A DNA stretch of 53,958 nt from an uncultured archaeon. Its GTDB lineage: Archaea > Nanobdellota > Nanobdellia > Woesearchaeales > CAIVOO01. The notes under the pieces were generated by a model. It saw only the letters and a list, made by a program, of their open reading frames with translations, searched no databases and was not told the origin of the DNA. The position numbers and the translations under genes are program-made. Below are positions 15,611 through 40,013 of the stretch, in pieces. The stretch covers positions 1 through 53,958 of the forward strand of contig CAIVED010000014.1 in assembly GCA_903904885.1 (NCBI GenBank), in the 5' to 3' direction. Each line of letters begins with the position of its first letter. Positions within the stretch are counted from its first letter, which is position 1.

Positions 15611-16369
15611 TTAAGTGCTTATGCAAGAATAAATGCAATACGGGGTAACGGTAACTGTCCACGGGGAATGGGTCATGGCATATCTATATTCAAATTCTCC
15701 TACAAGTTTAATTTTAGAGTTTGCCGGACAAACTAAATTATAGAAACAACCTCCTCCCGCGTTACAACTCGCTGCCACAAATGTGGCACCCCCCCAAGAA
15801 TCGGTTATTCCCGGTATTCTTGGTGCATAAGTAGCATAGTTCAGACTAAAATCGGTTTCACAGTTTTGTGTAACCCCGTTTTTACCTAAATAACCCCCTG
15901 CAACAATATTGCCTGAAGGCCAGGTGGTCCTTGGAACACCGCCAAGTGTTATGGTTTTAGTGGCAGTTATATTTTCTGAAGTGATGTTGGAATTTGGAAA
16001 AACCACAGACAGATACGATGACCCGGGATAAATTTGCAGACCCGCCCACGCCCCTGAAGGATTGTACGATATGCTTGCCTTAGTTCCCCAGGAAATGCTG
16101 TTCGGCAGAGTCTCAGGCAAAACCAAAGACTTCCCAACATTCAAATTCCCAAGAAAACCAAAAGTATCAGAAGAAGTCCCACCAAAAGTCCCAGGCAATA
16201 CCTTTCCGGCAGAAACATTCATTATCTCATTATCACTATGGCCCATAATCGCAGGGTTGTTATAAGATGACTGATAGGCAGCAACCCCAGCAACAAACAA
16301 AATGCAAACTAGAACAACCAAAAACACCAAATGCCTCTTCTCAAAATTAAATGACAAATTAATCTGCAT
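15611..16369 (-). CDS. Modular surface protein, paralogue E (GGxPRxxWP family)
   Basis: A 252-aa member of a five-copy family here. The N-terminus FEKRHLVFLVVLVCILFV is a signal anchor nearly identical in all copies. It continues with YQSSYNNPAIMGHSDNEIMN, shared almost exactly with the copy at 30038-31213. Next come FGFLGNLNVGKSLVLPE and TITLGGVPRTTWPSG, the family's beta-rich repeat like those of tail-fibre shafts. The last 95 residues form a distinct tip with five Cys (NCETDF, AASCNAGGGCFYNLVC) and two more at the end. It is leaderless from the TATA box at 16391. It is probably displayed outside as an adhesin, by inference. It lies 12 kb from the other four copies. Confidence 0.85.
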   Translation of the reverse strand: MQINLSFNFEKRHLVFLVVLVCILFVAGVAAYQSSYNNPAIMGHSDNEIMNVSAGKVLPGTFGGTSSDTFGFLGNLNVGKSLVLPETLPNSISWGTKASISYNPSGAWAGLQIYPGSSYLSVVFPNSNITSENITATKTITLGGVPRTTWPSGNIVAGGYLGKNGVTQNCETDFSLNYATYAPRIPGITDSWGGATFVAASCNAGGGCFYNLVCPANSKIKLVGEFEYRYAMTHSPWTVTVTPYCIYSCIST

Positions 16370-16645: not shown

Positions 16646-17083
16646 TTAAATCTGCCTGACCTCAAACGCATTCCACTGGCCTGTTGTGTTGATTGCTATT
16701 TTCTCTATGACCGACTGCCTTGGCTGGAAACTGACCAAAATAGTTGCATTTGCAACTGGCTTTTGGGCGTAGTAAAGCACCGCAAACAATTTTGCATCGC
16801 CTGCAAAATTATCAAGGTTTGTCACGTTGACATTTACCTGCGAGAATCCTTTCATCTTGTAGCCTGCCTGCTCTCCTATTTTAAGCCTCACATTATTGGC
16901 AGCTTCTGGACTGACCACAGGCAACGAAGGAACGCTTGCTTCCGGGGCATTAACCTGCTTCTGCGGCCCTCCGACAATCTCGCTTATTTTTTCCGGGATT
17001 AGCAAGTACCATCCGAGACCTATTGAAAGAGCTGCAATCATGAGAACTATTACCAAAACCAAAAGGAATATTACGCGCCTCAT
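16646..17083 (-). CDS. Membrane-anchored extracellular protein coupled to the giant protease
   Basis: A 145-aa protein with an N-terminal membrane helix (residues about 5-29), a Pro/Ser linker, and a beta-sandwich-like outer domain (QVNVNVTNLDNFAGDAKLFA). Its ATG overlaps the stop of the protease gene (ATGA), so the two are translationally coupled and probably act together. The anchor and the IVGGP that follows resemble the left-edge FG-GAP protein's IGGP region, suggesting a common anchor module. No catalytic motif is seen. It could be a chaperone, inhibitor or assembly partner of the protease; that is inference. Confidence 0.8.
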   Translation of the reverse strand: MRRVIFLLVLVIVLMIAALSIGLGWYLLIPEKISEIVGGPQKQVNAPEASVPSLPVVSPEAANNVRLKIGEQAGYKMKGFSQVNVNVTNLDNFAGDAKLFAVLYYAQKPVANATILVSFQPRQSVIEKIAINTTGQWNAFEVRQI

Positions 17084-20000: not shown

Positions 20001-22293
20001 TTTTCAGGAAATCATTTATTTCAGAAGCAAAGGATTTGTTTATTTCCTCACTTCCATTAAAATAGCCAAATTGGTATATTCTGAACAGCAGGTCAGCCTG
20101 GGCAAAGTAACTGGACCTCCAGGTGGCGCCGTTATCAGGAGAAGCCTGCATCTGGCCCTCAGGGTAATAGTCCGCTGTTAAACTACTGTAGGGCAGCATA
20201 TAGGAGCCAAAACCCGGGTTTGCAAGCCTCAGGTAAAACCAGTATTTTCCGGGAGGCAAGTTAACACCGTTAAAATCAAAAGTATTCCAGTCAGAGGATG
20301 TCGAAATCACGCCAAAAGAAACATTAACACTTGCCACAACACCTCCTGTCGGGAGATTGCCGCTGTCATTTCTTATTTCAACAACGATGCCATCCCCGGA
20401 AAGCTGTCTCTGCATAAAAACAGATATTGCAGCTATTTCTCCTCCGGACCAGTTAAAGCTCTGGCCAACAGTGTTATTATCATATACCCCGTAAATATTT
20501 TGGTTCATCAATTCCTGCTGCTCCTGGGAAATGGCTGTGCTGTAGCTTAGCCACTCCACATCACCGTCCCTGCTGAAGTCAATCCTTACCTTGTAAGGAA
20601 TGGTTAGGCCGTTGTCTGAACCGTTTATTTCAAGCGAAGCAGATGTTGCATTTGCGTTTTTTGGAATCGTAAGATAGGCAGTTTTTGCCTCATTGCCGGC
20701 GAATGAGAAATTAACATGGCTGGAAGCCGGAGAAAAAAGAGTTATATTTCCACTTTGGCTTCCCTGCTCTGTTGCGTAAAAAACTGAGTAGTTGATAAAA
20801 TTGGGGCATTTGGCAGTTCCATTTAGTTTTATGGCCCCCGCCCCCTCGTAGTTCATGTTATATGTGTTAAATTCGGCTGTGCAGGGCACATCGGTGAGAT
20901 TCACCGCAGCCAGGGCATTAACCCTCCCCTGCCCCTGGGATTTCAATTCTAGGCCCAGGTCCTGGGCAGTATTCCTTATTGCCATTTTCACATCCAGCGG
21001 TGTCCAGTTTTTGTGCATTTGGAGCATCAATGCAACCACCCCTGCAATGTGGGGAGTTGCCATGCTGGTGCCGGATATTGAAACATGAATGCTGTCATGG
21101 CATTTCCTGTCGCTCCAGGCATCGTCCCATTCTGCAGCGCAAATAAAAACTCCGGGCGCCAGAACATCCGGCTTTAGGGTTCCTATGACCGTGGCTCCCC
21201 TTGAGCTAAATGCGGCAATCTGGTCATTTTTATAGGATGCACCGACGGTTATGGCCTTTCTCGAACTGCCCGGGCTTTCTATGGTGCCATAGCCAGGGCC
21301 GCTATTGCCTGCAGCAATTACCGCAACCACCCCTTCATCGACCGCATTGTCCACGGCTTTTGAAAGAACGTCGTCGGGAGTTCCGCCTCCGCCAAGGCTC
21401 ATGCTTATTATTTTGTAATGGTTTGCTGTCGCATTTTCCAAAGCATCAATTATGTAAACACCCGGGCATGAACCCTGTGATGAGCAGACCTTGTATGAAA
21501 CTATTCTTGCCCCGGGGGCGACGCCCTTCCAGCTGCCGTTGCCTGCGGCAGTTGCAGCAACATGGGTGCCGTGCCCATAGTCATCCATGGGATTATTATC
21601 CCGATTAAAAAAATCATAGCCACCGATTACCTTCGAGCAGGTTCCCGCAAGAAAGCTGTCGTTTGTGCAGCCGCCCAAATCAGGATGGGTATAATCCACT
21701 CCGGTGTCAATAATTGCTATTGTAATGTTTTCCCCGGTTACATTCACTCCGTTCTCATCTGTAAGATTCCAGACATCATCTGCATCTATCAGCGGGATTG
21801 ACTCATTTAAATTTATGTAGTAGGTCTTTGATAGGGATATGGACTTAACATATGGAAGAAGGTGTATGTACCCAATATCATATTCTGATGCGTTTACAGC
21901 CATTCCGTTCAGCACATGGAAATATTCGCCCAGAATAAGGCCATTTTCATCACCTTCAGACTGAAGGCTGTACCCGTCGCCAGCGCCCGAAAGCATCCTG
22001 CTAATGTCACTTTTTGCCTGCTCATGCTGAACCTTCAGCTGATTTTGATAGTCTTCGCTCTGTATATTGTACCCCTCTGCTCCAGGACTGCTGAACTCCA
22101 CAATGTAAACCCTTTTTTCCCAGGGCAGAATAGTAGTCCTTTCTTCAGGGGGATTATTGCTGGAAGAAGGCTCAGTTTCAAACACAGAATTCCCCGTTAT
22201 CTGAGCTGTGCCCTGTTTATTATTCACAAACAGCACAACTGCAACTGCCAAGAAAATAAGAATTAAAAAAAAAGCCAGGTTTTGTTTTCTCAT
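17080..22293 (-). CDS. Giant subtilisin-like (S8) surface protease with FG-GAP propeller and C-terminal anchor
   Basis: A 1737-aa secreted protease. A signal helix (residues about 5-23) and a propeptide-like region precede the S8 domain. Asp is in IAIIDTGVDYTHPDLGG near 195, His in DYGHGTHVAATAAG near 243, the oxyanion Asn in AAGNSGPG near 330, and Ser in SISGTSMATPHIAG near 407, so the triad is complete. Beta-sandwich regions follow. A run of FG-GAP/VCBS units (ADVDNDGNLEIVAAS, GDFNNDGYGEILAYS, ADLNKDNHLEVIAF) covers about 970-1400, then a thrombospondin type 3-like calcium repeat (FNDNCPFTYNPDQSDINNDG). A Gly-rich and Pro/Glu-rich stalk leads to a C-terminal membrane helix (about 1690-1712). 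The start is next to a hairpin that could hide it. Confidence 0.93.
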   Translation of the reverse strand: MRKQNLAFFLILIFLAVAVVLFVNNKQGTAQITGNSVFETEPSSSNNPPEERTTILPWEKRVYIVEFSSPGAEGYNIQSEDYQNQLKVQHEQAKSDISRMLSGAGDGYSLQSEGDENGLILGEYFHVLNGMAVNASEYDIGYIHLLPYVKSISLSKTYYINLNESIPLIDADDVWNLTDENGVNVTGENITIAIIDTGVDYTHPDLGGCTNDSFLAGTCSKVIGGYDFFNRDNNPMDDYGHGTHVAATAAGNGSWKGVAPGARIVSYKVCSSQGSCPGVYIIDALENATANHYKIISMSLGGGGTPDDVLSKAVDNAVDEGVVAVIAAGNSGPGYGTIESPGSSRKAITVGASYKNDQIAAFSSRGATVIGTLKPDVLAPGVFICAAEWDDAWSDRKCHDSIHVSISGTSMATPHIAGVVALMLQMHKNWTPLDVKMAIRNTAQDLGLELKSQGQGRVNALAAVNLTDVPCTAEFNTYNMNYEGAGAIKLNGTAKCPNFINYSVFYATEQGSQSGNITLFSPASSHVNFSFAGNEAKTAYLTIPKNANATSASLEINGSDNGLTIPYKVRIDFSRDGDVEWLSYSTAISQEQQELMNQNIYGVYDNNTVGQSFNWSGGEIAAISVFMQRQLSGDGIVVEIRNDSGNLPTGGVVASVNVSFGVISTSSDWNTFDFNGVNLPPGKYWFYLRLANPGFGSYMLPYSSLTADYYPEGQMQASPDNGATWRSSYFAQADLLFRIYQFGYFNGSEEINKSFASEINDFLKSCVPDFYGNCTFPVVVNSTNGTIVLSNLNVSYAGIKSINATFWHPVCSSGSQADNSELCSWDTTTLPEQDYLLKLEAVGSNSKSTDYLFRKIKDFYLIRPENGYLVGEGSDIIIDSNGNFTFSNYTIDYRMVDESNWLLLKFSQDPIGNGTLGYFNSSSLPEGVYIIRLTAYINNSNYSSQRNVTVKVDKKLHKGWPQELDFTVFSSQKVADVDNDGNLEIVAASTRSPYIFQTGGDYNDFNRSVYIFRSNGTLMEGWPQPTVGSMMWGKTLTLGDLDNDGDLEILYPDYSGQQIVAEHYNGSMVAGWPQPAYLGGYDLISTSPSLYDIDNDGNLEVIFASSFYLYVYRANGSLIWKTDLSLTWGFEEAYAPVGDFNNDGYGEILAYSNQFKKIYLLNYTGGVMDGWPYNVTPADSGVYGLVMADLDNDKDLEAIFEQRGKGIVALHHNGSAVNGWPQNVEGNYVLDLIAADLNKDNHLEVIAFPFLYGGYNESKIFIFNSNGTNFTGFPIGLPDGTLSMRPTVGDIDGDSQMEILVSAERIIELTPGVWADGGTVYSYDADNPGITPGFPMQTDVGPPYVLWERTQESAPTIADIDHDGKVELIVGSAYYTDRLPLGPYSGGRIVVWDLNTTYNNSLIEWSQFGGNMHNTFSYVDVDFDHVLFNDNCPFTYNPDQSDINNDGTGDACSSIVGNLTHVNTTIENLTIAIGNSTNLSLQFNETLNIQFYDNGSLFMNFTENFSNYSLDLASVSIEKGINGTNNYIIIKNLNITGTKTLYLPRSDNSSSKVCFIDGDVVSLSTLLSGCTELDCPGTSGGYACSIANNTFSVSGFRHSALIESYSPPQVPPAHHGGGGGTGTSTTGGGILVPPVQETATGTVEENAAPKETVAAAEKPQEIPQETAKEQPPAVEQPKAVAPPAKKGASPASIIIFCAVLAVAVMLIILRVRKKPKMGVIYGGMPKDLKEPEQLIRQ

Positions 22294-22485: not shown

Positions 22486-25400
22486 TCATGGCGAGGGGGG
22501 AATTGGACGGCCCGGGAACATTGGGGGCTTCGCTCTTCTCAGGTAAATCTGATATGCTATTATTGAAAATAAGACAACCCCTACAGCCACCATAACTATC
22601 ACCGCAGGAACCCATGCTGGCACCAAAGGCTTTCTTACAGGCACAGGCGCAGGCTTTTGGACCTGAGGCGTAACTGGTGCCGGTGCTGATGGAACAGGCT
22701 GAGCAGGCACAACTTCTGTTGGTTTTTGCTGCGGCGCTTCTGCAGAAGGCTCTTCTGCTATTGCTGTCTTGCCATAGTAAGGAGGCATGTCAACGCTGTT
22801 GCCTCCTCCAGAAGTTCCTCCTGAGGGGGCTATGCCTCTTTTTGTAACAGGAGCCAGAAGACTTGTTCCGTTAATTCTTGTCCCGCTTACTGTAATCCAT
22901 GGAAGTATCTTGATATTATACAGTCCATTCGTGTTAAGAGGCCATGTGAATGGTGATGCTGTTACCGTGCCGAGAATGCTGAATGCTGCTCCAATGTTGT
23001 AGAACACATCATAGCTTACCGGCTGGATTGGGCTGCTCTGGCTGGTAAATGATAATTCAGTTGTAAATGTGCTTGCCCCCAAAGTAACCTGGCCGCAGTC
23101 ACCTGAAACAGGAGCCAGGCTTTCCTCATAGAAATTGCCATTTCCATTGTAGCAGAAGCTGTTGCCGGTTCCGTTGTTTGTAACGTTTCCTGAGGCAAAA
23201 ACATTCAGATAGATTTTGCTGTTTGAAGGTTCGGAAACGCCTGATACATTGTTTAATAGTATGGGGGACATCCTGTTTCCAGTGAAGACATTGCCTTTTA
23301 TCTTATTGTCATCACTGCTTATGTTAATTGCCCATACTTTCTGCGATTTTGAGCTGTTGTCAAATGAAAGATAGGGCACTTCTGAGAATCTAATGCCATC
23401 TGCCGCAAGAGTGCTGTTCCAGAAGTAATTCTTGCCAGAGCCGTTTGCCAGCACTGCTACTGCTTGAAGTTCATAGTAGCAGTTGCCAGGGTATCCAAGA
23501 CCGTTTATTCCTCCGCAATTAAGACCGCTTGTATAAATGGTTACGTTCTCGCCGCATCCAGCACTGCTAAAATTTCCTGCGCTGTCGTTGTAAAGCGCTA
23601 TGCCAAAATTAACAGAGCCGTCTGCAAGTGCAACCTTCTGCTCTCCTGCTGAAGTGAAGATTGTGCCGGCAAGCCCGTTGGTCCATATTATGCACCCGCT
23701 GAAGTTTGTCCCGTTATATTCTGCATATGCAAAGTCTGAATAGTATCCGGGCGCAATCTTCCCCACATTTATGAAAGTGTTGTTTTCTATTGTTGAATTA
23801 GGGTTTGGATCGGACGTGGCGCTAGTAAGTATAATTGCCGAATAATTCTCTATGTTGGAGAAGGTATTGTTAATCAGCAATGGAGAAGACGAGCCGGTTA
23901 TCAATGACATATGGATTATATGCGAATCATTTGAGAAAACATTATCAGAAAAGTTTGATAACACATTGTGGGAATACAGATATAACGTTGAGTTCCTGTC
24001 AAATATGTTGCCCCGGAATGGCTCGGTTATGTAGGTGGATCCTTGCAGCTTTATATGGCTGCTGTTGAAATAATTGCCATTTAGGATAATATCTGCACTA
24101 GCATCAGCATTTATATCTAATTTAGGGATGCCTATGAAATTATTGGTGAAATTGACAATTGAAGAATACGCCCCTCCCCCAGTCATGTAAACCTGCGAAT
24201 TGGCGTTCCCGATTATGGAAGAATTATAGACCACCAGAGGGCCATTAATGAGGTATACTGCCGTATTTGCGAAAAAAACACTGGTGAAATCGCCTGAGAT
24301 TGAGGAGTTCTTCATGCTAAGCGAAGCATTGGTTAGCCGTATCACCGGAACGCTGAAATTGGAAGTGTGGGCCAAGTCCCGGATAACCATGTTGGAATTT
24401 ATTGCACTGACAAAGGAAACACCGCTGCCCAGGTAGTTTCCTGCGCCCTTCAAAGTTGCATTGGTATCGTTCACCCAGATTGCGCTGTCACTTATGTTAA
24501 GGAAAGTATTGCCGATAAAAGCTGCTGTTGAATTTGCCGCCCATGCTGCATTGGTGCTGTTAGCACATGTGTTGTTTTCAAGAGAAATCCCATTGCTATT
24601 CCGAAGATAGAAGCAGACTGGGAAATTTTCAATATCATTATCCGCTGCTACAGAATTTGAGGTTTCCAGCCAGATTAATCCGTTTCCGTTGTTATTTGAA
24701 ACGGTATTGTTATCGCCAGTTATAAGCATGGCAAAAACACTGTCAATAAATGTGTTGTTGTAAAATATGCTGTTGCTTGAGCTGTATAATGTATTGATAT
24801 TGCCAAGATAGCTAGGAACTGACTGGTTGAAAAAATTGTTGGAAACATTCATGCCTTTTGTACGCCCCAGGCCTACTTCCCCCCAAGTATTTGAATCATT
24901 GAAAAAATTGCTGTTTACAACAGTTATATTCTCACATAAAGAATAATCGCAGCCGCCAATTACCTCCTGGTCGCTGTCATAGACGCTGAGGTTGTCAAAT
25001 GTGACATTGGTGTCTGCAATAATGTTAGTGCGTTTCAGATTGGTATTCCTCACCAGAACGTCCCGGCTATTTTCCAGGTAGAGGTCCATTCCCCCGGAAA
25101 CATTTAAATTATCGAGATTTGCATTATCAATGGCAACACCGGCAGCATTGCTGACATAGATACTTTCACCGCCTGTTGAATTGTATGCAGTTACGTTTAT
25201 TATGGTAATATTGGAGCTGTTCCTGACCTCGATGGCGTTCCTGCCCTGGTTTAAGAAATTGCAGTTCTGGATTGTGATATTAGCATTATTTTTATCTGTC
25301 CAGCCAACAAGAATGCCTGATTTGCTGAAAGCAGGATTAGAATAATTAAAAGTTGAACCATTGCAGTCTAAAATAATATCATTTACCCTGCTGCCTATCA

Positions 25401-25989
25401 CGCCTGTCAGCGGATCTGCGAGTATTTCCATTGTCCTTCCGGAATAATTATCCGTGCAGAGGGTCTCACTCTGTCGAACAGAATAAACTAAGGATGGATT
25501 CGGGATTACTGGATTCTGGGTTAAATTGAGGCAGGAATAGGTTATTGTATAAGTATCATTCACTATGAGATTGGCTCCATAAACAGATGAGTTCGCTGTT
25601 GTAGTGTAAACGAATGTGCCGTCATATAAGGTTGCTGTGGCATTTTCAGCAGTGTATTGCCACTGGCTGTCCCCAGATACATTAAATGTCATGTTATATG
25701 TGTTATATGACGGACCAGTATGATCAAAAAAAGTTATTGTGACACTTCCTTCTGCATCGGTAATCGTCCCCCCCGTAGAATTCGTGAAGTTTGCATTAAA
25801 AGATACGGCATCGAAACGGTAGATAATGCCGCCGTCAGTGTCATCAGAAACATTCAGGAAATTGCTTCCGTCAGTAACCCCCCCGTAGCCGGTTATGCTG
25901 CCCATATTCTTGCCTGAATACAGGTTAAGGAGAAGAAAGGCGAACAGGACTATGATGACAATTAAAGCAACATTCCGAATCTGACCCAT
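22486..25989 (-). CDS. Second large beta-helix (NosD/pectate-lyase-like) surface protein
   Basis: A 1167-aa protein. I start at the ATG at 25989, preceded by GAGGTG 6 nt upstream; a TTG one codon earlier is in frame. Residues about 8-26 are a signal anchor. Most of the length from about 170 to 900 is right-handed beta-helix with rungs such as NITIQNCNFLNQGRN and SNITIINVTAYNS, very rich in N-x-S/T. A Gly/Pro/Ala-rich stalk and a membrane helix (about 1125-1147) follow, with a short basic end. It resembles the 1114-aa gene but lacks its cytoplasmic tail. It is upstream of the protease in the same direction. Carbohydrate binding is plausible; no catalytic residues were identified. Confidence 0.87.
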   Translation of the reverse strand: MGQIRNVALIVIIVLFAFLLLNLYSGKNMGSITGYGGVTDGSNFLNVSDDTDGGIIYRFDAVSFNANFTNSTGGTITDAEGSVTITFFDHTGPSYNTYNMTFNVSGDSQWQYTAENATATLYDGTFVYTTTANSSVYGANLIVNDTYTITYSCLNLTQNPVIPNPSLVYSVRQSETLCTDNYSGRTMEILADPLTGVIGSRVNDIILDCNGSTFNYSNPAFSKSGILVGWTDKNNANITIQNCNFLNQGRNAIEVRNSSNITIINVTAYNSTGGESIYVSNAAGVAIDNANLDNLNVSGGMDLYLENSRDVLVRNTNLKRTNIIADTNVTFDNLSVYDSDQEVIGGCDYSLCENITVVNSNFFNDSNTWGEVGLGRTKGMNVSNNFFNQSVPSYLGNINTLYSSSNSIFYNNTFIDSVFAMLITGDNNTVSNNNGNGLIWLETSNSVAADNDIENFPVCFYLRNSNGISLENNTCANSTNAAWAANSTAAFIGNTFLNISDSAIWVNDTNATLKGAGNYLGSGVSFVSAINSNMVIRDLAHTSNFSVPVIRLTNASLSMKNSSISGDFTSVFFANTAVYLINGPLVVYNSSIIGNANSQVYMTGGGAYSSIVNFTNNFIGIPKLDINADASADIILNGNYFNSSHIKLQGSTYITEPFRGNIFDRNSTLYLYSHNVLSNFSDNVFSNDSHIIHMSLITGSSSPLLINNTFSNIENYSAIILTSATSDPNPNSTIENNTFINVGKIAPGYYSDFAYAEYNGTNFSGCIIWTNGLAGTIFTSAGEQKVALADGSVNFGIALYNDSAGNFSSAGCGENVTIYTSGLNCGGINGLGYPGNCYYELQAVAVLANGSGKNYFWNSTLAADGIRFSEVPYLSFDNSSKSQKVWAINISSDDNKIKGNVFTGNRMSPILLNNVSGVSEPSNSKIYLNVFASGNVTNNGTGNSFCYNGNGNFYEESLAPVSGDCGQVTLGASTFTTELSFTSQSSPIQPVSYDVFYNIGAAFSILGTVTASPFTWPLNTNGLYNIKILPWITVSGTRINGTSLLAPVTKRGIAPSGGTSGGGNSVDMPPYYGKTAIAEEPSAEAPQQKPTEVVPAQPVPSAPAPVTPQVQKPAPVPVRKPLVPAWVPAVIVMVAVGVVLFSIIAYQIYLRRAKPPMFPGRPIPPSP

Positions 25990-26060
25990 CAATACACCTC
26001 GTTTTTTGTATGCCGAAAAGAGACAAGAACTGCCTCTTGAAAGTGAAAATATTTACTGGA

Positions 26061-26989: not shown

Positions 26990-27865
26990 ATGAAATGGGG
27001 AATAGTCGTTTTTCTGGCAGTTCTGCTAGCCATGCCAATGGCATTTGCAGGAGATGTAATATTCACCAACCTTAAGGGAAGCTGCAATTCTGACGGAAGC
27101 GCCCTGGTCTCAATGATACATGACGGAAGCCCTATTAAAGAAAGCGATATTGAGATAACATCAAATTTCACTGAAACCGATGCCATATCAAATGTTGATG
27201 GCCGCTGGCTGACCGGGGGGGAAAACCAAGCATATATTTATTACTCCCCAAGCCAGGTCTTGTTTAATTCGAGCCCGGGCCAGTTCTCCAAAAAAGGGGA
27301 ATATGAGATACATTTTTTATTCTTCCAAAAAAGCCAGGATTACGCAAAAACTGACGTGTCCCTGCGAATAAGCTGCCCCGGAATGCCTTGCAATAACAAT
27401 TATGAATGCGATTTTGATTCTGAATGCTCGGATGGCCTGTGCCAGCCATTAAACTGCAGGAGCAACGAGTTCATAGAATTCCACCAGTGCACTCCCAAAT
27501 GCAATGATTTCAAGCCCTGCACAATTGACAGGTATGAAAGCGGCAGATGCGTTTATTCGAGGAATGATAGCTGCTGCGGCGAGGACAAGGACTGCAGCTC
27601 AGGCAGCGCCTGCATTGTTGACAAATGCGCAAATGGCCAGTGCGTCCACAGCCCTATTGTCTGCGAGTCTGCAAAGGACAGCTGCGTTACTTCAAAATGC
27701 GTTGAAACAAAGGGCTGCATTTACGAAACAGACGAGAGCTGCCTTGCAAACGAGAATGAAAAAAGGGACTATTTAATTGTGATTGGGCAGCCGAAAGTGT
27801 ACACACAGCCGCTTTTGCCGAGAATATTCTCTGCAATTGGGGATTTCTTTAGGAATTTGTTTTAG
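26990..27865 (+). CDS. Secreted Cys-rich protein
   Basis: A 291-aa protein with a classical signal peptide (MKWGIVVFLAVLLAMPMAFA, cleavage probably before Gly21). An N-terminal beta domain of about 110 residues is followed by about 120 residues of dense, regularly spaced Cys (CNNNYECDFDSECSDGLC, CCGEDKDCSSGSACIVDKC), the pattern of small disulfide-knot repeats such as EGF- or disintegrin-like modules. The exact class cannot be fixed by eye. It ends in an amphipathic helix (LPRIFSAIGDFFRNLF) that could attach to membrane. The many disulfides fit export, and a thioredoxin-like domain is encoded in the surface protein at 40006. It is leaderless. Confidence 0.82.
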   Translation: MKWGIVVFLAVLLAMPMAFAGDVIFTNLKGSCNSDGSALVSMIHDGSPIKESDIEITSNFTETDAISNVDGRWLTGGENQAYIYYSPSQVLFNSSPGQFSKKGEYEIHFLFFQKSQDYAKTDVSLRISCPGMPCNNNYECDFDSECSDGLCQPLNCRSNEFIEFHQCTPKCNDFKPCTIDRYESGRCVYSRNDSCCGEDKDCSSGSACIVDKCANGQCVHSPIVCESAKDSCVTSKCVETKGCIYETDESCLANENEKRDYLIVIGQPKVYTQPLLPRIFSAIGDFFRNLF

Positions 27866-28349: not shown

Positions 28350-29987
28350 CTATTTGTACCAGATTTCCCAATTCCACTGACTGGTAAATGATGACCAGTC
28401 CGCTGTTTCGACTTTTAATGAAGTTAGATCCCCTGTCCAATGAGTGGAAGTTTCATAAATGCAAAATACTGTACCATAAGGTTCCCCGCATTTCCCAGGA
28501 TAACCTGGGTTGGGTGTCAGACCCGTTAGGTCAGGGCATCCTACCATAAGTTTGCCATTTATATACAACTGCGCCCAGTTATGCCCATCCTTTCCTCCTC
28601 CTGGGCTCAAGTCAGCGGATACTTTGTTTAGAGTTCCGCTTGAATAATAAAAATCAGTACATTTTGAACTCTTTGACCCCCCGTTTATCACACTTCTGCC
28701 ATCCCCCCCAACACCGTAAAAATCATTATAATTCTTTACCTTGAATAAAATTTTTTTTGGTTGGTCAGTTGGCCAGTCAAATTTTCCAAAATTCATTCTT
28801 TCAGGGTCTGAATAAGCAGAACTTAAAACATAACTAACCCCTGATGGACCAATAGTAGTTAGACCCTCTTCACTCTCTTCCGAGGCCTCAAGCAATAATT
28901 TCCATCCACTATCCGGCCAGCTGTCTCTTGGCTCGCCTCCGAGGGTTAGATTGCCTGTTACAGTCATGTTAATAACCGTAATGTTTTTAACAGTCAGGAG
29001 GTTAGAAATATTAACATTCCAAGGAAAACTAAAATTCCCTCCACCAACATTCACCCCAAAAGTCCCCGCAGTTATATTCACCGCACTAAGATTGGAAACA
29101 TTGGAAGGCCATTCATCCCGTGGAATTCCGCCAAGAGTCATGTTCCCCTTCACAGTCATGTTAATCACAGTTATATTTTTGGCAAGAAGATAATTAGAAA
29201 CATTAGCATCCGCCACACTAATATTTCTCGCAACAACCCTGTCATCAACAGTCAAATTCCCGGCAGAAAGATTAGCTACGGAAGCATTTGGAACAGTCAA
29301 TCTCGTATCAACTGAAAGATTATCAGGAAAAGTATAATCTCCGTTTCCAAAAGTGCCATTTGTTATGTTGCGTGCAGGCAGCTGGGACACTACCGCTACA
29401 GAAGGCCAACTATCCCTTGGCTTACCCCCAAGAGTTAGGTTGCCCGTTACATTAGTGTTGTTCGCAACCAAATCACCATCAATGTGAACATTTCCTGCAC
29501 CGCCAGAAATCCACAAACCGGTTGTTGAACTATAATCTATATGGGGCTTTAACGGATCCCTGGATGAACTCATCCACCAAATACCATTATTGGGCGCATC
29601 ATTAGGAAAATACAAAATCGAGGGAAAACCAAAATTCCCATCTACAAAATTATCACCAAAAATCCCTGCAGTTATATTTGCAGCACTGAGATTAGAAACA
29701 TTTGGAGGCCATTCATCCCTTGGAACCCCACCAAGAATTATATAACCTGTGGCATTCAGATCTTTTGTTGTTATTTTCTTGCTAACATTCAAATCCCCGC
29801 TAACATTCAAATGCCCAGGAAAACCAAAATTTCCTGCACCGAAAGTCCCAGGCCCGGTCTCATTTGCACCATGACCAACATGAGTTATTGGATTAACATA
29901 GGCAGCAACCCCAGCAACAAACAGCACAGAAACAAATACAACCAAAAACACCAAATGCCTCTTCTCAATGTGAATATGAATGTCCAT
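28350..29987 (-). CDS. Modular surface protein, paralogue D (GGxPRxxWP family), longest copy
   Basis: A 545-aa family member starting at ATG 29987 (MDIHIHIEKRHLVFLVV), which lies 31 nt from the TATA box; the open frame extends 7 codons further. After the anchor and YVNPITHVGHGANETGPGTFG come at least four shaft units: FGFPGHLNVSG, then NLTLGGKPRDSWP, MTLGGIPRDEWP, NLTLGGEPRDSWP and related segments, each separated by NVS/NIT-rich strands. The last 185 residues are a separate tip domain, starting at GWKLLLEASEE, with four Cys (KCTDFYY, GCPDLT, KCGEPYG, VFCIYE). The tip is not recognised. The shaft looks like a trimeric tail-fibre or pilin-like stalk. Confidence 0.85.
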   Translation of the reverse strand: MDIHIHIEKRHLVFLVVFVSVLFVAGVAAYVNPITHVGHGANETGPGTFGAGNFGFPGHLNVSGDLNVSKKITTKDLNATGYIILGGVPRDEWPPNVSNLSAANITAGIFGDNFVDGNFGFPSILYFPNDAPNNGIWWMSSSRDPLKPHIDYSSTTGLWISGGAGNVHIDGDLVANNTNVTGNLTLGGKPRDSWPSVAVVSQLPARNITNGTFGNGDYTFPDNLSVDTRLTVPNASVANLSAGNLTVDDRVVARNISVADANVSNYLLAKNITVINMTVKGNMTLGGIPRDEWPSNVSNLSAVNITAGTFGVNVGGGNFSFPWNVNISNLLTVKNITVINMTVTGNLTLGGEPRDSWPDSGWKLLLEASEESEEGLTTIGPSGVSYVLSSAYSDPERMNFGKFDWPTDQPKKILFKVKNYNDFYGVGGDGRSVINGGSKSSKCTDFYYSSGTLNKVSADLSPGGGKDGHNWAQLYINGKLMVGCPDLTGLTPNPGYPGKCGEPYGTVFCIYETSTHWTGDLTSLKVETADWSSFTSQWNWEIWYK

Positions 29988-30008
29988 ACAGCATATAAAA
30001 TAAGCCAC

Positions 30009-30018
30009 AAATTATAAA
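30009..30018 (-). promoter_or_regulatory. TATA box for paralogue D
   Basis: Minus-strand GTTTATAATT starts 31 nt before the ATG at 29987 and helps choose that start over 30008. Confidence 0.65.
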
Positions 30019-30037
30019 CTTTACTCTCAAAAAAGAA

Positions 30038-31213
30038 TCATTTCTCGCAGACAACGCAGCGGCTGACAACGTTTCTAGCATCATTTTCAGTCGAATATGT
30101 CGCTGCAGCAGCGTATGCATCCTTTGCTACAACCCACCCCGCAAGGTCCACAGGGGATGAATACCAACAGCCGTCATATGTGTTGACATCAACAGCCAAT
30201 CGCGAGCATTCCGTAAACGGCAGCCTTTTAAACTTAGGAAGGCAAGAACCAGGACTGCCTAATCCCTGATCAGCAGTATAAGCTGCTCCCCAATATCCTG
30301 TTGTAAGAGCCAGGCTATAACCATCCCAAAGTTCTTTCCAACCTGCAGGACATGTAGGAGTTGTTGTTGTCTGGCTGTGCTTAACTAAAACTGCTGCCCC
30401 GACTTTTTCACAAACATTGCACTTGCTGATACCATTGGTGTCTTTTGTTATTGAAGGAGGAGGAGGATTATCAACATTAATCAGCCAGTCACTATAGTCT
30501 TGAGGAGATACATAATAACAAGTACCTGACATTTGACATTCCAACAAAAAGCCTGGCCTAAATTCGCTGACGCATGAATCAGAAGTTCCCAAGTCTGCAG
30601 TATAAACTGAGGTAAGTAAAACCGATGCTGACACCAGACTATATCCTGTCCACAAAGAATCCCAGCCAGCAGGACAATCAGGAACAGAACTGGTCTGGCT
30701 GTGCACTGCAATAACAGTTGTGCCAGGCCAACTATCTCTTAGCTCGCCACCAAGAGTTATGTTCCTGGTTACATTAAGGTTTTTAGTAGTTATATTATTC
30801 AAGACATTCAAATTCTGATTAACAGTCACATCGCTCATAAGAAGAATAGGGTAACCATCGCTGCCAGAACTAATCAACAAACCTGAGCCAACAGCATAAA
30901 AAATGAATGGAAATGTAGCTTGCCTTGTTGCGCCCCAGAAGATTCCATTATGCCCTCCATCACCCGGAAAAAATAATGTATTTGTAATATTCAAATTCCC
31001 AGGAAAACCAAAATTCCCCCCGCCAAATGCTGACCCAAAGGTTCCACTCAAAACCTTCGATGCAGAAACATTCATTATCTCATTATCACTATGGCCCATA
31101 ACCGCAGGGGTATAAGAAGACTGATAGGCAGAAACCCCAACAACAAACAGCACAGAAACAAATACAATCAAAAAAACAAAGTGCCTCTTCTCAAAATTCA
31201 AAATTACCTGCAT
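30038..31213 (-). CDS. Modular surface protein, paralogue C, with a tandem collagen IV NC1 (C4) domain
   Basis: A 391-aa protein. Residues 1-40 are the family anchor (MQVILNFEKRHFVFL), then GHSDNEIMNVSASKV, GGGNFGFPGNLNIT and NITLGGELRDSWP. Residues 171-391 are two successive C4 subdomains. Subdomain 1 has HSQTSSVPDCPAGW, LWTGYSL, SDSCVSEFRPGFLLEC, GTCYYVSPQDYSDWL and KCNVCEK. Subdomain 2 from 279 has HSQTTTTPTCPAGW, LWDGYSL, GSPGSCLPKF, PFTEC, GCWYSS and RCVVCEK. Each carries the six Cys of the animal NC1 half-domain, twelve in all, at about the family's 110-residue spacing. In animals NC1 trimerises and crosslinks collagen IV. There are no Gly-X-Y repeats here. The start at 31213 follows the TATA box; an upstream extension is read through from the methyltransferase end. 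Confidence 0.9.
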   Translation of the reverse strand: MQVILNFEKRHFVFLIVFVSVLFVVGVSAYQSSYTPAVMGHSDNEIMNVSASKVLSGTFGSAFGGGNFGFPGNLNITNTLFFPGDGGHNGIFWGATRQATFPFIFYAVGSGLLISSGSDGYPILLMSDVTVNQNLNVLNNITTKNLNVTRNITLGGELRDSWPGTTVIAVHSQTSSVPDCPAGWDSLWTGYSLVSASVLLTSVYTADLGTSDSCVSEFRPGFLLECQMSGTCYYVSPQDYSDWLINVDNPPPPSITKDTNGISKCNVCEKVGAAVLVKHSQTTTTPTCPAGWKELWDGYSLALTTGYWGAAYTADQGLGSPGSCLPKFKRLPFTECSRLAVDVNTYDGCWYSSPVDLAGWVVAKDAYAAAATYSTENDARNVVSRCVVCEK

Positions 31214-31234
31214 GGATGAATATTTTTTTATGAG

Positions 31235-31243
31235 ATTATAAAG
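31235..31243 (-). promoter_or_regulatory. TATA box for paralogue C
   Basis: Minus-strand CTTTATAAT starts 30 nt before the ATG at 31213 and lies only a few nt after the methyltransferase stop. The same stop-to-TATA junction is copied at 32838-32860. Confidence 0.65.
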
Positions 31244-31250
31244 TTTTCCC

Positions 31251-32006
31251 TCACTTCCTCGCCACAACAAGCCAGTCCCAGATTGGCTTTTCGTCGGGGA
31301 AGAATGCATCCGGATTCCCAAATGCGTCCCAGGAATAGTAAAGCTTGCTTATCCTTATTTTTTTGAATCCGGCTTTTCTCAGGCGGTATTCTATTTCAAA
31401 TTCGTAGAAGTGCTTCTGCCTGTTGCCGTCCTCGTTGATGAAGCCCAAAAGGAAATCATAGTCCTTGCTGTCGAGTATAGCCTTGGTTTTTCTGACTGCA
31501 GCCCTCGTTGGGTTTGTCTTGAGCTCCCGCTCGTAGACAAGCATCGCGGCATAGAGCGCATATTCTATTGAGGGCAGAACCCCAACCAAAACTCCCCTTT
31601 CTTTCAGGGCATCATAAATATTCCCTATCACCCGGTTAACCTGCTTCACTGACGGAGAAATTATTGAATTAACCGTAACAATGACATTAAAATGATTTTT
31701 GTAGTTCAGCCTGCGCATGTCCTTTCTCCGGTAGATGACATTCTTGAATTTGGAGTTCATTCTCTTCGCAGTATTGACCATACCTTGAGAATAGTCAGTG
31801 GAGTAAACCCTCTTGAAATTCTCAGAGAGAAACGGCACAAGCAATCCAATTCCGCAGCCGAGCTCAAGCACAGACCTTCTCTTGCTCGCAAACCTCCCTA
31901 TTGCACGCCGTATTATCCTTGCGGCATTGTCGTCAGAAAAAGGGCTCAATACATTCTCGAAATATTTCTTTTTTGTTGAGATCTCGTCCCAGGCCTTGTC
32001 TTTCAT
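31251..32006 (-). CDS. Class I SAM-dependent methyltransferase
   Basis: A 251-aa Rossmann-fold methyltransferase. Motif I is VLELGCGIGLLVPF near residues 41-54, motif II ends in VYSTDYSQGM, and the post-motif regions are NVIYRRKDMRRLNY and NVIVTVNSIISPS. The C-terminal part (FYEFEIEYRLRKAGFKKI) is a typical cap. The substrate is unknown; because it lies inside the adhesin array, a glycan, lipid or protein N-terminus at the surface is possible. Its last 15 codons, starting PDEKPIWDWLV, are copied at 32854-32901. A TATA-like box lies 34 nt upstream. Confidence 0.88.
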   Translation of the reverse strand: MKDKAWDEISTKKKYFENVLSPFSDDNAARIIRRAIGRFASKRRSVLELGCGIGLLVPFLSENFKRVYSTDYSQGMVNTAKRMNSKFKNVIYRRKDMRRLNYKNHFNVIVTVNSIISPSVKQVNRVIGNIYDALKERGVLVGVLPSIEYALYAAMLVYERELKTNPTRAAVRKTKAILDSKDYDFLLGFINEDGNRQKHFYEFEIEYRLRKAGFKKIRISKLYYSWDAFGNPDAFFPDEKPIWDWLVVARK

Positions 32007-32032
32007 TTCTGATATGGGAGAATGCTAAATTG

Positions 32033-32040
32033 TTTTAAAA
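32033..32040 (-). promoter_or_regulatory. TATA-like box for the methyltransferase
   Basis: TTTTAAAA lies 27-34 nt before the ATG at 32006; slightly wider spacing than its neighbours. Confidence 0.45.
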
Positions 32041-32106
32041 TGTTTTGGTTTGGAATGGGAAATGAATGGAAAACTATAACTATTGTTTCAAAAAGAAATA
32101 AGACGC

Positions 32107-32817
32107 TCATTTAAAACAAGCAAAAACACTGCCCCTTAACTTGGTCGCAGCATCACACACAGCTTCTACGCTAAGAGTATTTTGATTGTGTACCTCGCAA
32201 TAACCATCTCCTCCAGCTGAATTTCCTGTCATAATCATGATCATTGCACCTGGGGGGTAGTCGGGGGGCCGACAACTACAAGTTCCACCCACACTACCCC
32301 CAGCTACCTCGCAACTGCCCACATAAAGTGAAGACATAGACGGCCAGCTGGTTCTGCAATCATTGCCAAAGCAAAGATTAGGAGCTGATACGCTCAACTT
32401 AGCAATAGCCTGTCCAATCTGAGTAACCCTGAAAATTTCCTGGGCAAATGCATGATCAACAAGCCTAAAATTTCCATTAATATTCTGCAGGTGTATATTC
32501 TGTGCGGGATTGACACCGTTAAGTCTCAAAACTTCGCCTTCCCCTTCTCGCCACCAAAAAGTTGCAGCACCATTATTCGCATACAAATTGCCAACCGCCC
32601 ACACATTGCCATTCACACCAAAATTGCCATTCACATTCAAATTGCCAGGAAAAACATAATCCCCTGCGCCGAAAGTCCCAGGACCTGTCTCGTTTGCAGG
32701 ATGGCCAACATGAGTCACCGGATTAACATAAGCAGAAACACCGACCACAAAAAGAATGCAAGCAAGAACAACCAAAAACACCAAATGCCTCTTCTCAAAA
32801 TTCAAGACTACCTGCAT
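32107..32817 (-). CDS. Modular surface protein, paralogue B (GGxPRxxWP family)
   Basis: A 236-aa copy. The anchor MQVVLNFEKRHLVFLVV is almost identical in DNA to paralogue C, followed by YVNPVTHVGHPANETGPGTFG, the variant shared with copies A and D, so this gene is a mosaic of the two N-terminal types. A short shaft (NLNVNGNFGVNGNVWAVG) leads to a globular part (WWREGEGEVLRLNGVN) like that in copy A, and a tip of about 75 residues with six Cys (GSCEVAGG, GTCSCRPP, YCEVHN, AVCDAA, FACFK). It is leaderless. Probably surface-exposed, by inference. Confidence 0.84.
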   Translation of the reverse strand: MQVVLNFEKRHLVFLVVLACILFVVGVSAYVNPVTHVGHPANETGPGTFGAGDYVFPGNLNVNGNFGVNGNVWAVGNLYANNGAATFWWREGEGEVLRLNGVNPAQNIHLQNINGNFRLVDHAFAQEIFRVTQIGQAIAKLSVSAPNLCFGNDCRTSWPSMSSLYVGSCEVAGGSVGGTCSCRPPDYPPGAMIMIMTGNSAGGDGYCEVHNQNTLSVEAVCDAATKLRGSVFACFK

Positions 32818-32837
32818 GGATGAATATTTGTTTATTA

Positions 32838-32847
32838 GAATATAAAG
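32838..32847 (-). promoter_or_regulatory. TATA box for paralogue B
   Basis: Minus-strand CTTTATATTC starts 30 nt before the ATG at 32817 and directly follows the methyltransferase remnant. Confidence 0.65.
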
Positions 32848-32853
32848 TTTTCC

Positions 32854-32901
32854 TCATTTTCTCGCAATAACCAGCCAGTCCCAGATTGGCTTTTCGTCCG
32901 G
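32854..32901 (-). pseudogene. 3' remnant of a duplicated methyltransferase gene
   Basis: The last 15 codons plus stop encode PDEKPIWDWLVIARK, against PDEKPIWDWLVVARK at the end of the intact methyltransferase (31251). Homology continues through the stop codon and the AAAACTTTATA promoter of the next paralogue in both places. The rest of the gene is gone; upstream sequence belongs to paralogue A's end. It is a scar of segmental duplication followed by deletion. Confidence 0.8.
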
Positions 32902-32947
32902 TAAATATATTGGAAAAATTCTGCAGCGAGGATTTATTATCTTGCGC

Positions 32948-33793
32948 TCATAGTGTACAACAATACATTTTGTCAACTTCTGGATGATCCTGGTAATCAT
33001 AACGCTGGGTCCATTCCCAAGGTTCTTCATAGTGTATCCCTGCCATAAACTGGCCATTAGGGCATGTCTGATAAAAAGTATTTGGAACAGCGTCTATCCA
33101 TGCACAACTAAACCATCCATTATTAGAAACCTTGAGGTCTCCATCAATTACCGTGCTCCCGCTAACATACAGGTTCCCAGAATTCCTCAGGGCCCCCGTA
33201 ACTACCGTTCCTCCGGCATACTCACCACCAAAATTCAAATAGAGCGTATCTCCTGAATTTTCACTCGCCCCCACCAGCGCCAGGTTTCTGTCATCTCCTT
33301 CTGCAGTTGAAGCGCCTCCTTGAATCCAGACATCATGATACCCATTGTTAATATTCTGGAGTATTGGCCCGCCTACACGTAATGTGCCATCCTGAGCAAA
33401 ACTAAATTCCTTATTCCAGGCATCATTAACAATTCTGAAGTATCCATTAGTATTCAGCAAGTGCACAGCCGGTCCACTGGCACCAGCCAAACTCAGAACT
33501 TCTCCTGAACCATCTATCCAAGAAAAAGTTGCACGACCATTATTCGCATTCAAATTGCCAGTAGCCCACAAATTGCCATTCACGCCCAAATCGCGATTCA
33601 CATACAAATTGCCAGGAAAACCAAAAATATCAGAAGAAGTCCCACCGAAAGTCCCAGGACCTGTCTCGCTTGCAGGATGGCCAACTTTTGTTGTCGGGTT
33701 CACATAAGCAGAAACACCAACCACAAAAAGAACGCAAACAAGGACGACCAAAAACACCAAATTCCTCTTCTCTATATGAATATGGATGTCCAT
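32948..33793 (-). CDS. Modular surface protein, paralogue A (GGxPRxxWP family)
   Basis: A 281-aa copy starting MDIHIHIEKRNLVFLVV, the anchor type of paralogue D, then YVNPTTKVGHPASETGPGTFG and SSDIFGFPGNLYVNRDLGVNG. The middle part (FSWIDGSGEVLSLAGASG, VHLLNTNGYFRIVNDAW) matches copy B. A longer shaft with SGNLYVSGSTVIDGDLKV ends in a tip of about 55 residues with four Cys (WFSCAWID, FYQTCPNGQF, MYCCTL). It lacks the LGGxPRxxWP unit itself. It is leaderless from 33815-33824. It is the upstream end of the array, divergent from the tRNA. Confidence 0.83.
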   Translation of the reverse strand: MDIHIHIEKRNLVFLVVLVCVLFVVGVSAYVNPTTKVGHPASETGPGTFGGTSSDIFGFPGNLYVNRDLGVNGNLWATGNLNANNGRATFSWIDGSGEVLSLAGASGPAVHLLNTNGYFRIVNDAWNKEFSFAQDGTLRVGGPILQNINNGYHDVWIQGGASTAEGDDRNLALVGASENSGDTLYLNFGGEYAGGTVVTGALRNSGNLYVSGSTVIDGDLKVSNNGWFSCAWIDAVPNTFYQTCPNGQFMAGIHYEEPWEWTQRYDYQDHPEVDKMYCCTL

Positions 33794-38063: not shown

Positions 38064-40013
38064 ATGAAAAAAAGGGGCCAAATTACAGTTTTCATAGTTA
38101 TAGGCATTATTGTGCTTCTTTTAATTGCGATTGTCTTCTTTTTCAGGGGGGAGCAGGCAGGGCTCCAGCCGAAAAAGCCCATTGAGCAGAAACTCGGGCC
38201 GGTTGAGCAGTACATCCAGTCCTGCGTTGAAAGCATATCAACCGATGCAGTCGAGCAGATGGGCCAAAAGGGGGGATATGTTTACACCCCAACCGAGCTT
38301 GAAAATTATGTAGAGGCTCACATCATTGAGGACCGGCTTGGCCTCCTGAAAGTCCCGATGTGGTACTACAAGGACAAGACCTATATGCCTTCAATTGACG
38401 AAATGCAGTACCAGATTTCCCTTTACCTGAACAATTCAATTAAAAAATGCCTTGCTGATTTTGAGCCCCTGAAAAATGAATACCAAATCAGCGAGACAGG
38501 CAATCCTGTTTTCACGGTAACAATTGCAGACGAGGACGTTGTTATTGAAACCGAATACCCCCTGGATGTTACCCTGAAGGCGAGAAATGAACAATACAAA
38601 GTTAATAAATTCTCAACACTGATCCCCGTGAGGCTGAAGAGAGTGTATTCACTTGCAAAAGCTATTTTTGAAAGTGAAAACAGCAACAACTTCCTTGAGA
38701 ACCTAACACTCCAGCTTATGACCATGAACCCCGCAATACCCTTCACAGGCATGGAATTCAGGTGCGGCAACAGGATATGGAGCGTTATCGGCATAGAAAA
38801 TGAGGTAAAAGAAGAGATTGCCACAAACATCCAGCGAATAAGGTTCAAGAACACAAACTACATCCCATTCCTCGAGCCGGAAAGCGAGTACAAGAAATTC
38901 ATCGGGCTCAAGCTTGACCCGCAGACAGGTGAGATACTGAATCTTCCGAAGAGGGATCCGCCTGTTGACTTGTATGAATATGCGCATTTCTTTTTTGATG
39001 TCACTCCGGATGATTACAAAGACCTCACAGTGGATACCATATTTTACAGGGAATGGCCTCTGGCATTGGCAGCAATCCCAAGCGAAGCGGGCCTGCTCAG
39101 GTCAGAAGAGCTGGGCAACATTGAACTTCTGAAATTCCTGTGCATTGAGATGTGGCATTTTATCTACGACCTTTCATACAATGTTGAATTCGCGGTAAGG
39201 GATGACCAGTCATTCGGCGGCAAGGGATACACTTTCAAGTTCGCAACTCCGGTAATAATAAAGCATGACCGGGCCATGAAGCTTCCATTGTCAGCGAGGG
39301 CGTTCATCAGCCCTGCCATATCATCCGGCATCTGCGCAAATGCAGGCACAGGCCCCATGGAAATAAGGGCCTATGACAAGGTTACAAGGGAGGAACTTTC
39401 GGGCGTTAACATAACATACAAATGCCTGAACCAGGTCTGCAATCTCGGGAAGACAAGGGCAGACTTCGGCGTGAACAGGCTGAGGACATCACTGCCCGCA
39501 GGATGCGGCAACCCCCAGATAATCGCGGAAGCAGACAGCTACATTGCAGGCCAGACCTATGCGCCGCAGACCGGCAAGGTGGAAATCCCGATGGTGCCCC
39601 TCAAGAAATATTCTTTCAATGTCATGAAGATACTGTCCATAAACAAGGAGGAGACAGCCCTGCTTCCGGATGAGGTTGTCCTGATAACCCTCAAAAACAA
39701 GGACTACAATTACGAGGAGAGCATAATGTTCCCGGACATAACGGGAGGCAACCTTTCAGAGCTAAACTTAATATATGACAGCACAACATACCAGATGGAC
39801 ATGTTCATCTCAAAAGGGGACAATTACGTTGGCGGCTGGACAGGCAGCTGGACAGTTTCCGCAAAGGACCTGTTTGACACGGACTTCATAAATTTCAGGG
39901 CCTATGAAAAAATACCATACCCTTCATCGGACGAGGAAATTATAGGGATGCTTACAGAGGTGGGCCAGGAATCCCAAAATTATCCGCCCCAGTTTGGAGT
40001 AAAAAATGAATAA
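38064..40013 (+). CDS. Extracellular protein with a class III (pilin-like) signal
   Basis: A 649-aa protein. MKKRGQITVFIVIGIIVLLL matches the type IV pilin/archaellin signal, where a FlaK/PibD-type peptidase cuts after the basic K/R-G and the hydrophobic stretch stays as the assembly helix. Here the helix spans residues about 7-28. The remaining 620 residues are far longer than a pilin and look mixed alpha/beta, with Cys at about 56 and 133, near FRCGNR, and CIEMWHF; then ICANAGTGP and a beta-sandwich C-terminal third (ISAGVNITYKC-like strands near 440-460). The stop overlaps the next ATG by 8 nt, so it is coupled to the 2262-aa secreted gene. A minor-pilin-like anchor for that protein is an inference. 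Confidence 0.8.
   Translation: MKKRGQITVFIVIGIIVLLLIAIVFFFRGEQAGLQPKKPIEQKLGPVEQYIQSCVESISTDAVEQMGQKGGYVYTPTELENYVEAHIIEDRLGLLKVPMWYYKDKTYMPSIDEMQYQISLYLNNSIKKCLADFEPLKNEYQISETGNPVFTVTIADEDVVIETEYPLDVTLKARNEQYKVNKFSTLIPVRLKRVYSLAKAIFESENSNNFLENLTLQLMTMNPAIPFTGMEFRCGNRIWSVIGIENEVKEEIATNIQRIRFKNTNYIPFLEPESEYKKFIGLKLDPQTGEILNLPKRDPPVDLYEYAHFFFDVTPDDYKDLTVDTIFYREWPLALAAIPSEAGLLRSEELGNIELLKFLCIEMWHFIYDLSYNVEFAVRDDQSFGGKGYTFKFATPVIIKHDRAMKLPLSARAFISPAISSGICANAGTGPMEIRAYDKVTREELSGVNITYKCLNQVCNLGKTRADFGVNRLRTSLPAGCGNPQIIAEADSYIAGQTYAPQTGKVEIPMVPLKKYSFNVMKILSINKEETALLPDEVVLITLKNKDYNYEESIMFPDITGGNLSELNLIYDSTTYQMDMFISKGDNYVGGWTGSWTVSAKDLFDTDFINFRAYEKIPYPSSDEEIIGMLTEVGQESQNYPPQFGVKNE

Follow-up and report, generated by a model that had tools for sequence, protein, structure and literature searches.

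A tandem collagen IV NC1 domain at the tip of a fibre-like protein encoded in a recombined archaeal gene array

A draft genome of an uncultured archaeon of the order Woesearchaeales encodes a protein, the product of gene B, whose tip is almost certainly homologous to the C-terminal NC1 domain of collagen IV, as judged from sequence comparison. The gene belongs to a family in which a common N-terminal anchor is followed by shafts of related types and by mutually unrelated tips, and the NC1 tip is joined in frame to these archaeal modules. The window analysed here is the whole stretch of DNA forming contig C14 (53,958 nt), and coordinates refer to it unless another contig is named. The features discussed are as follows.

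Gene A, 28350..29987, minus strand: anchor, four LGGxPRxxWP shaft modules and a 186-aa tip (about 28350-28910) without known relative.
Gene B, 30038..31213, minus strand: anchor, shaft and tandem NC1 tip, 391 aa from the ATG at 31213 (open reading frame, anchor profile match and two Pfam C4 matches).
NC1 repeat 1 of gene B, 30404..30715, minus strand: PF01413 positions 2-110, six conserved Cys, E=9.6e-28 (search of one genome), best against animal C-subdomains.
NC1 repeat 2 of gene B, 30041..30391, minus strand: PF01413 positions 2-110, six conserved Cys, E=8.9e-26, best against the N-subdomains of fly alpha1 and human alpha2 and alpha4.
TATA-like box AAAACTTTATAAT, 31214..31250, minus strand: about 30 nt before the ATG of gene B, read from the sequence; putative promoter.
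Class I SAM methyltransferase gene, 31251..32006, minus strand: between genes B and C (Pfam Methyltransf_25, E=9.3e-14).
Gene C, 32107..32817, minus strand: mosaic anchor, short shaft and a 75-aa Cys-rich orphan tip.
Methyltransferase 3' end remnant (PDEKPIWDWLVIARK-like), 32857..32910, minus strand: 18 codons, 78% identical, between genes D and C, upstream of C.
Gene D, 32948..33793, minus strand: anchor, a shaft in common with gene F and a Cys-rich orphan tip of about 58 aa.
Gene E, 15611..16369, minus strand: fifth copy, detached from the others, with a Cys-rich orphan tip of about 100 aa.
Gene F, contig C11 (L035:3462-4322; anchor at C11:12461-12640): further copy elsewhere in the genome.
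Gene G, contigs C19 and C33 (anchor at C19:141-332): further copy, apparently split by contig ends.

The tip of gene B (30041-30718) consists of two tandem copies of PF01413 (Pfam E=1.8e-53) that together score 179.9 bits against a gathering cut-off of 27, with both repeats spanning nearly the full 110 positions of the model, and each repeat alone also matches NC1. A phmmer search of the PDB returned collagen IV NC1 chains only; natural single-chain entries had E values between about 1e-30 and 1e-34, human and fly NC1 lying at about 1e-33. Against a profile built from animal NC1 sequences only, the tip scored 170 bits; the highest score among 4,000 shuffles, in 2,000 of which the cysteines retained their positions, was 13.6 bits. 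This profile had no significant match in any other open reading frame of the window. The gene B protein contains exactly 12 Cys, all of them aligned to conserved columns of the two-subdomain NC1 fold. Like the NC1 of human and Drosophila collagen IV, the tip is a C-terminal C4-C4 tandem at the end of a putative fibre, and it carries the motifs HSQT...CP.GW..LW.GYS and SRC.VC. Identity of its repeats to every animal subdomain compared is 32-43%, and an AlphaFold model from the single sequence had a pLDDT of 30, too low for use. The start of NC1 lies three residues past the shaft motif LGGELRDSWP, in frame with the archaeal anchor, and genes A, E and F switch to their own tips near the same point relative to the shaft motif.

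In other respects gene B departs from collagen IV. Its sequence contains no Gly-X-Y triple-helical domain and no 7S domain, the order of its repeats may be closer to C then N, and its N-terminus is a hydrophobic anchor. The chloride switch of the animal proteins has been defined by residues R76, D/E78 and E175 (PMC6527180); in both repeats of gene B the first of these is P, with equivalents of D78 and E175 present. The sulfilimine residues are M93 and K/Hyl211 (PMC13098435), and the corresponding positions in gene B are a gap or A for M93 and T for K211, in a loop where the alignment is loose. Since the Gly-X-Y helix, R76 and the M93/K211 pair are all missing, we regard gene B as encoding an NC1-domain protein and not a collagen IV; as R/K179 is missing too, neither an animal-type chloride switch nor a sulfilimine bond would be expected. 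Gene B offers a natural NC1 that appears to do without either chemistry.

The anchor profile picks up exactly five genes in the window and two further copies in the genome (F and G). The likely starts of A and B are 29987 and 31213, the listed open reading frames reaching further upstream, and at the N-terminus of the array proteins a short run of charged residues leads into a single hydrophobic helix. The original prediction described four adjacent genes and one at 15611 as adhesins sharing an anchor at the DNA level and LGGxPRxxWP shaft repeats, and ending in unrelated Cys-rich tips. Pairwise comparison bears out the modular plan of constant anchor, repeated shaft and different tips: DNA identity is 75-92% in blocks of the anchor and parts of the shaft, and the tips have no mutual similarity in DNA or protein. 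Of the shaft motif, A has four instances and B, E and F have one each; C has a degenerate form and D none. Cysteine richness applies to the tips of B (12 Cys), C, D and E, but not to that of A, where 4 Cys in 186 aa are not notable, and the NC1 identity of one tip had gone unrecognised. Putative adhesin seems a reasonable label for the array proteins. None of the tips of A, C, D and E has a second copy in the genome, a relative in the 118 genomes of the order searched or a credible match in the PDB; the AlphaFold model of D had a pLDDT of 35, again too low for use.

Genes A, C, D and E are also preceded, about 30 nt upstream of the ATG, by AT-rich boxes similar to that of B, and these TATA-like boxes would suit an arrangement in which each array gene has an archaeal transcript of its own with almost no leader. 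The sequences on C19 and C33 (L036:3-332 and L066:1-504) both end in the same shaft sequence, the C19 copy running off the contig end; together they look like one anchor gene, G, with a GIGTSSPAAKLEV-type shaft resembling a protein of genome G386.

In collagen IV, NC1 trimerises the chains, caps the trimeric shaft and mediates head-to-head contact. We consider it fairly probable that gene B encodes a membrane-anchored, presumably trimeric, tail-fibre-like adhesin with an NC1 head. The array proteins would be exported and each held in the membrane by its single N-terminal hydrophobic helix, a beta-rich shaft resembling those of phage tail fibres and similar fibres would project outward, and each protein would terminate in its own, usually disulfide-rich, head. 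In gene B the NC1 head would nucleate or lock a trimer on a non-collagenous trimeric shaft and, being oxidised and stable, may serve cell-cell or cell-matrix contact with a putative binding partner. Isolated recombinant NC1 of alpha1, alpha3 and alpha5 forms trimers and hexamers without the collagen helix, and these assemblies are dimers of trimers in which the subunits swap strands (PMC6211539). Because NC1 can self-assemble in this way without a collagen helix, trimerisation of the gene B product may be expected; that its shaft is likewise trimeric is suggested by its resemblance to tail fibres, the match to a tail-fibre profile being weak (E=0.0014). Gene B lacks most of the residues that form the hexamer interface in animals (P replaces R76 in both repeats, and M93 is absent), so a hexamer-type assembly may not occur.

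PF01413 exceeds the cut-off in one of the 352 genomes of the order, that of gene B, which is likewise the only one to pass in a search of 371 genomes across the phylum. No NC1 was found in 84,980 species genomes scanned with two pattern sets, which rely on short conserved peptides that divergent members may escape, in viral contigs by two pattern scans insensitive to divergent members, or in phages and plasmids by tblastn. Genome G123 gave a weak PF01413 match that was out of frame and contained stops, and this was set aside as noise; four further weak matches in the order all lie below the cut-off, three of them with an internal stop. The anchor profile matches 27 of 287 genomes of the order, including that of gene B, the other 26 being weak to moderate matches. 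Tail-fibre-like proteins at the G308, G386 and G024 loci have a related anchor (E down to 5.8e-9) and shafts with GIGTTSP or CRTSWP-type motifs, but those inspected at such loci end in shaft-like sequence with no NC1 head. The fibre type is common in the order, and the examined tips are private to the genome of gene B among the genomes searched.

In the literature available, reports of NC1 are so far confined to animals and a single amoeboid relative of theirs, and we found no report in the literature searched that associates it with archaea or DPANN. Type IV collagen has been regarded as an early metazoan innovation (PMC5395295), and its earliest occurrence has been placed in filastereans (PMC5560861). 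The type IV collagen of the filasterean Ministeria vibrans (PMC5560861) resembles the present case in that C4-C4 occurs outside animals, in a unicellular organism without a basement membrane; it has Gly-X-Y repeats and the canonical repeat order, whereas gene B is archaeal and has a non-collagen shaft.

In a maximum-likelihood tree of the archaeal repeats, human alpha1-alpha5 and both fly chains, the archaeal repeats fall outside both the animal N clade (93.4/89) and the C clade (98/98), on branches of 1.1-1.25 substitutions per site. Alternative placements, with the two repeats as sisters, with repeat 1 joining C and repeat 2 joining N, or the reverse, are not rejected (AU 0.2-0.63; 0.24 for the sister relation). 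With most chains repeat 1 scores best against the C-subdomain, and with several chains repeat 2 scores best against the N-subdomain, the tree leaving their order unsettled. Both repeats combine E ahead of the third Cys, as in the C-type, with the full-length loop and D78 of the N-type. This evidence speaks against a donor that was both recent and close to the animals in the tree, and is compatible with an early-holozoan donor as well as with a prokaryotic source.

We tentatively suggest that NC1 may have been acquired by horizontal transfer from a co-habiting holozoan or animal after the N/C duplication, possibly as a mimic of host matrix. Its restriction to a single genome of the order, together with the empty pattern scans of species genomes, fits a sporadic gain, and the other reports of type IV collagen concern animals and Ministeria (PMC5560861). 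Transfer is also favoured by the affinities of repeat 1 to animal C-subdomains and of repeat 2 to the N-subdomains of some chains, the tree placing them likewise. It sits less easily with the long branches of both repeats outside the animal N and C clades, with a repeat order that looks reversed relative to animals, and with the joint presence of N-type and C-type hallmark residues in each repeat.

Some of these same features would suit an unlikely alternative, in which NC1 would be a rare fibre-head domain of older prokaryotic or viral descent that has escaped sampling, and the head of holozoan collagen IV was later derived from it by transfer and duplication. The repeats then lie outside both animal subdomain clades, their union of the E before Cys3 with the full loop and D78 is as a pre-duplication form would have it, and their sister relation is not rejected. 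However, long branches could give the same placement, and no second prokaryotic or viral homologue was found among the genomes, viral contigs, phages and plasmids, the pattern scans being insensitive. That an early holozoan obtained the C4 pair, by which collagen IV networks became possible, from a trimeric surface fibre of a prokaryote, and that collagen IV retained the head capping the trimer but acquired a different shaft, strikes us as rather improbable. The archaeal NC1 is a possible outgroup for the N/C duplication, and its position on a non-collagen shaft makes the order of events testable, whether head before helix or late capture.

Divergence between the array genes is not equal along their length in pairwise DNA comparison; it has a block structure in which the nearest relative varies by block. 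Gene C is 83.7% identical to B from 87 nt upstream to position 90, 82% identical to A over positions 20-185 and 77% identical to D over 22-368; D is 91.5% identical to E over 59 nt adjoining an 80% block, and shares 78% DNA identity with F over 367 nt of shaft. A PHI-like test on codon-aligned anchors gave p=2e-4 (k=5 and 10). The two anchor halves yield trees that reject one another (AU p=0.006 and 1.7e-4). Recombination within the anchors is thus supported statistically, as is the mixing of modules put forward in the original prediction. The two shuffled N-terminal subtypes that it had cited are insufficient alone as proof, three of four possible combinations occurring; the shuffling itself is upheld by these independent tests.

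The methyltransferase remnant between D and C indicates that the duplicated unit included the methyltransferase tail, the promoter region and the anchor. We propose that the array copies would have been born by duplication, with the methyltransferase tail carried along and left as a scar, that the anchors were mixed afterwards by recombination, and that the heads were replaced or diverged beyond recognition. The array is a concrete candidate for how small archaea build adhesive heads and diversify them by recombination.

The shufflon PilV adhesins of conjugative plasmids likewise have a constant N-terminus and varying C-terminal tips. This likeness, together with the supported recombination among copies, could suggest phase-variable or shufflon-like switching of tips inside one population, and the original prediction had looked to rearrangement in subpopulations. 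Such switching is highly improbable here: in contrast to a shufflon or other invertible system, no long inverted repeats flank the tips and no second copy or silent cassette of any searched tip was found, on which grounds the shufflon idea was dropped, and all copies are complete genes, each preceded by a promoter-like box.

An assembly chimera or eukaryotic contamination is scarcely credible, for although the source is a single draft genome (1.31 Mb, 44 contigs, 98.7% complete, reported contamination 2.18%), the fusion is intron-free and lies at a module boundary among archaeal genes on a 54-kb contig, the codon usage of NC1 equals that of the other array genes, the repeats are close to no animal sequence, and the in-frame junction so near the shaft motif, with an anchor that matches its neighbours, makes a chance join to a contaminant unlikely. 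The SSU and LSU rRNA of the genome are archaeal.

GC3 is 0.34-0.38 in all array genes (28350-33793 and 15611-16369) compared with 0.44-0.57 in the neighbouring methyltransferase and housekeeping genes. Many secreted proteins are encoded around a 1737-aa subtilase with FG-GAP repeats (17080-22293) and the adjoining 1168-aa beta-helix protein (22486-25992). A Cys-rich secreted protein without Pfam or NCBIfam match adjoins the array (26990-27865, plus strand). Further along the window, a 2262-aa secreted protein (40006-46794) contains, on our reading of its sequence, a thioredoxin-like CSLC stretch, which could link it to the disulfide chemistry of surface proteins.
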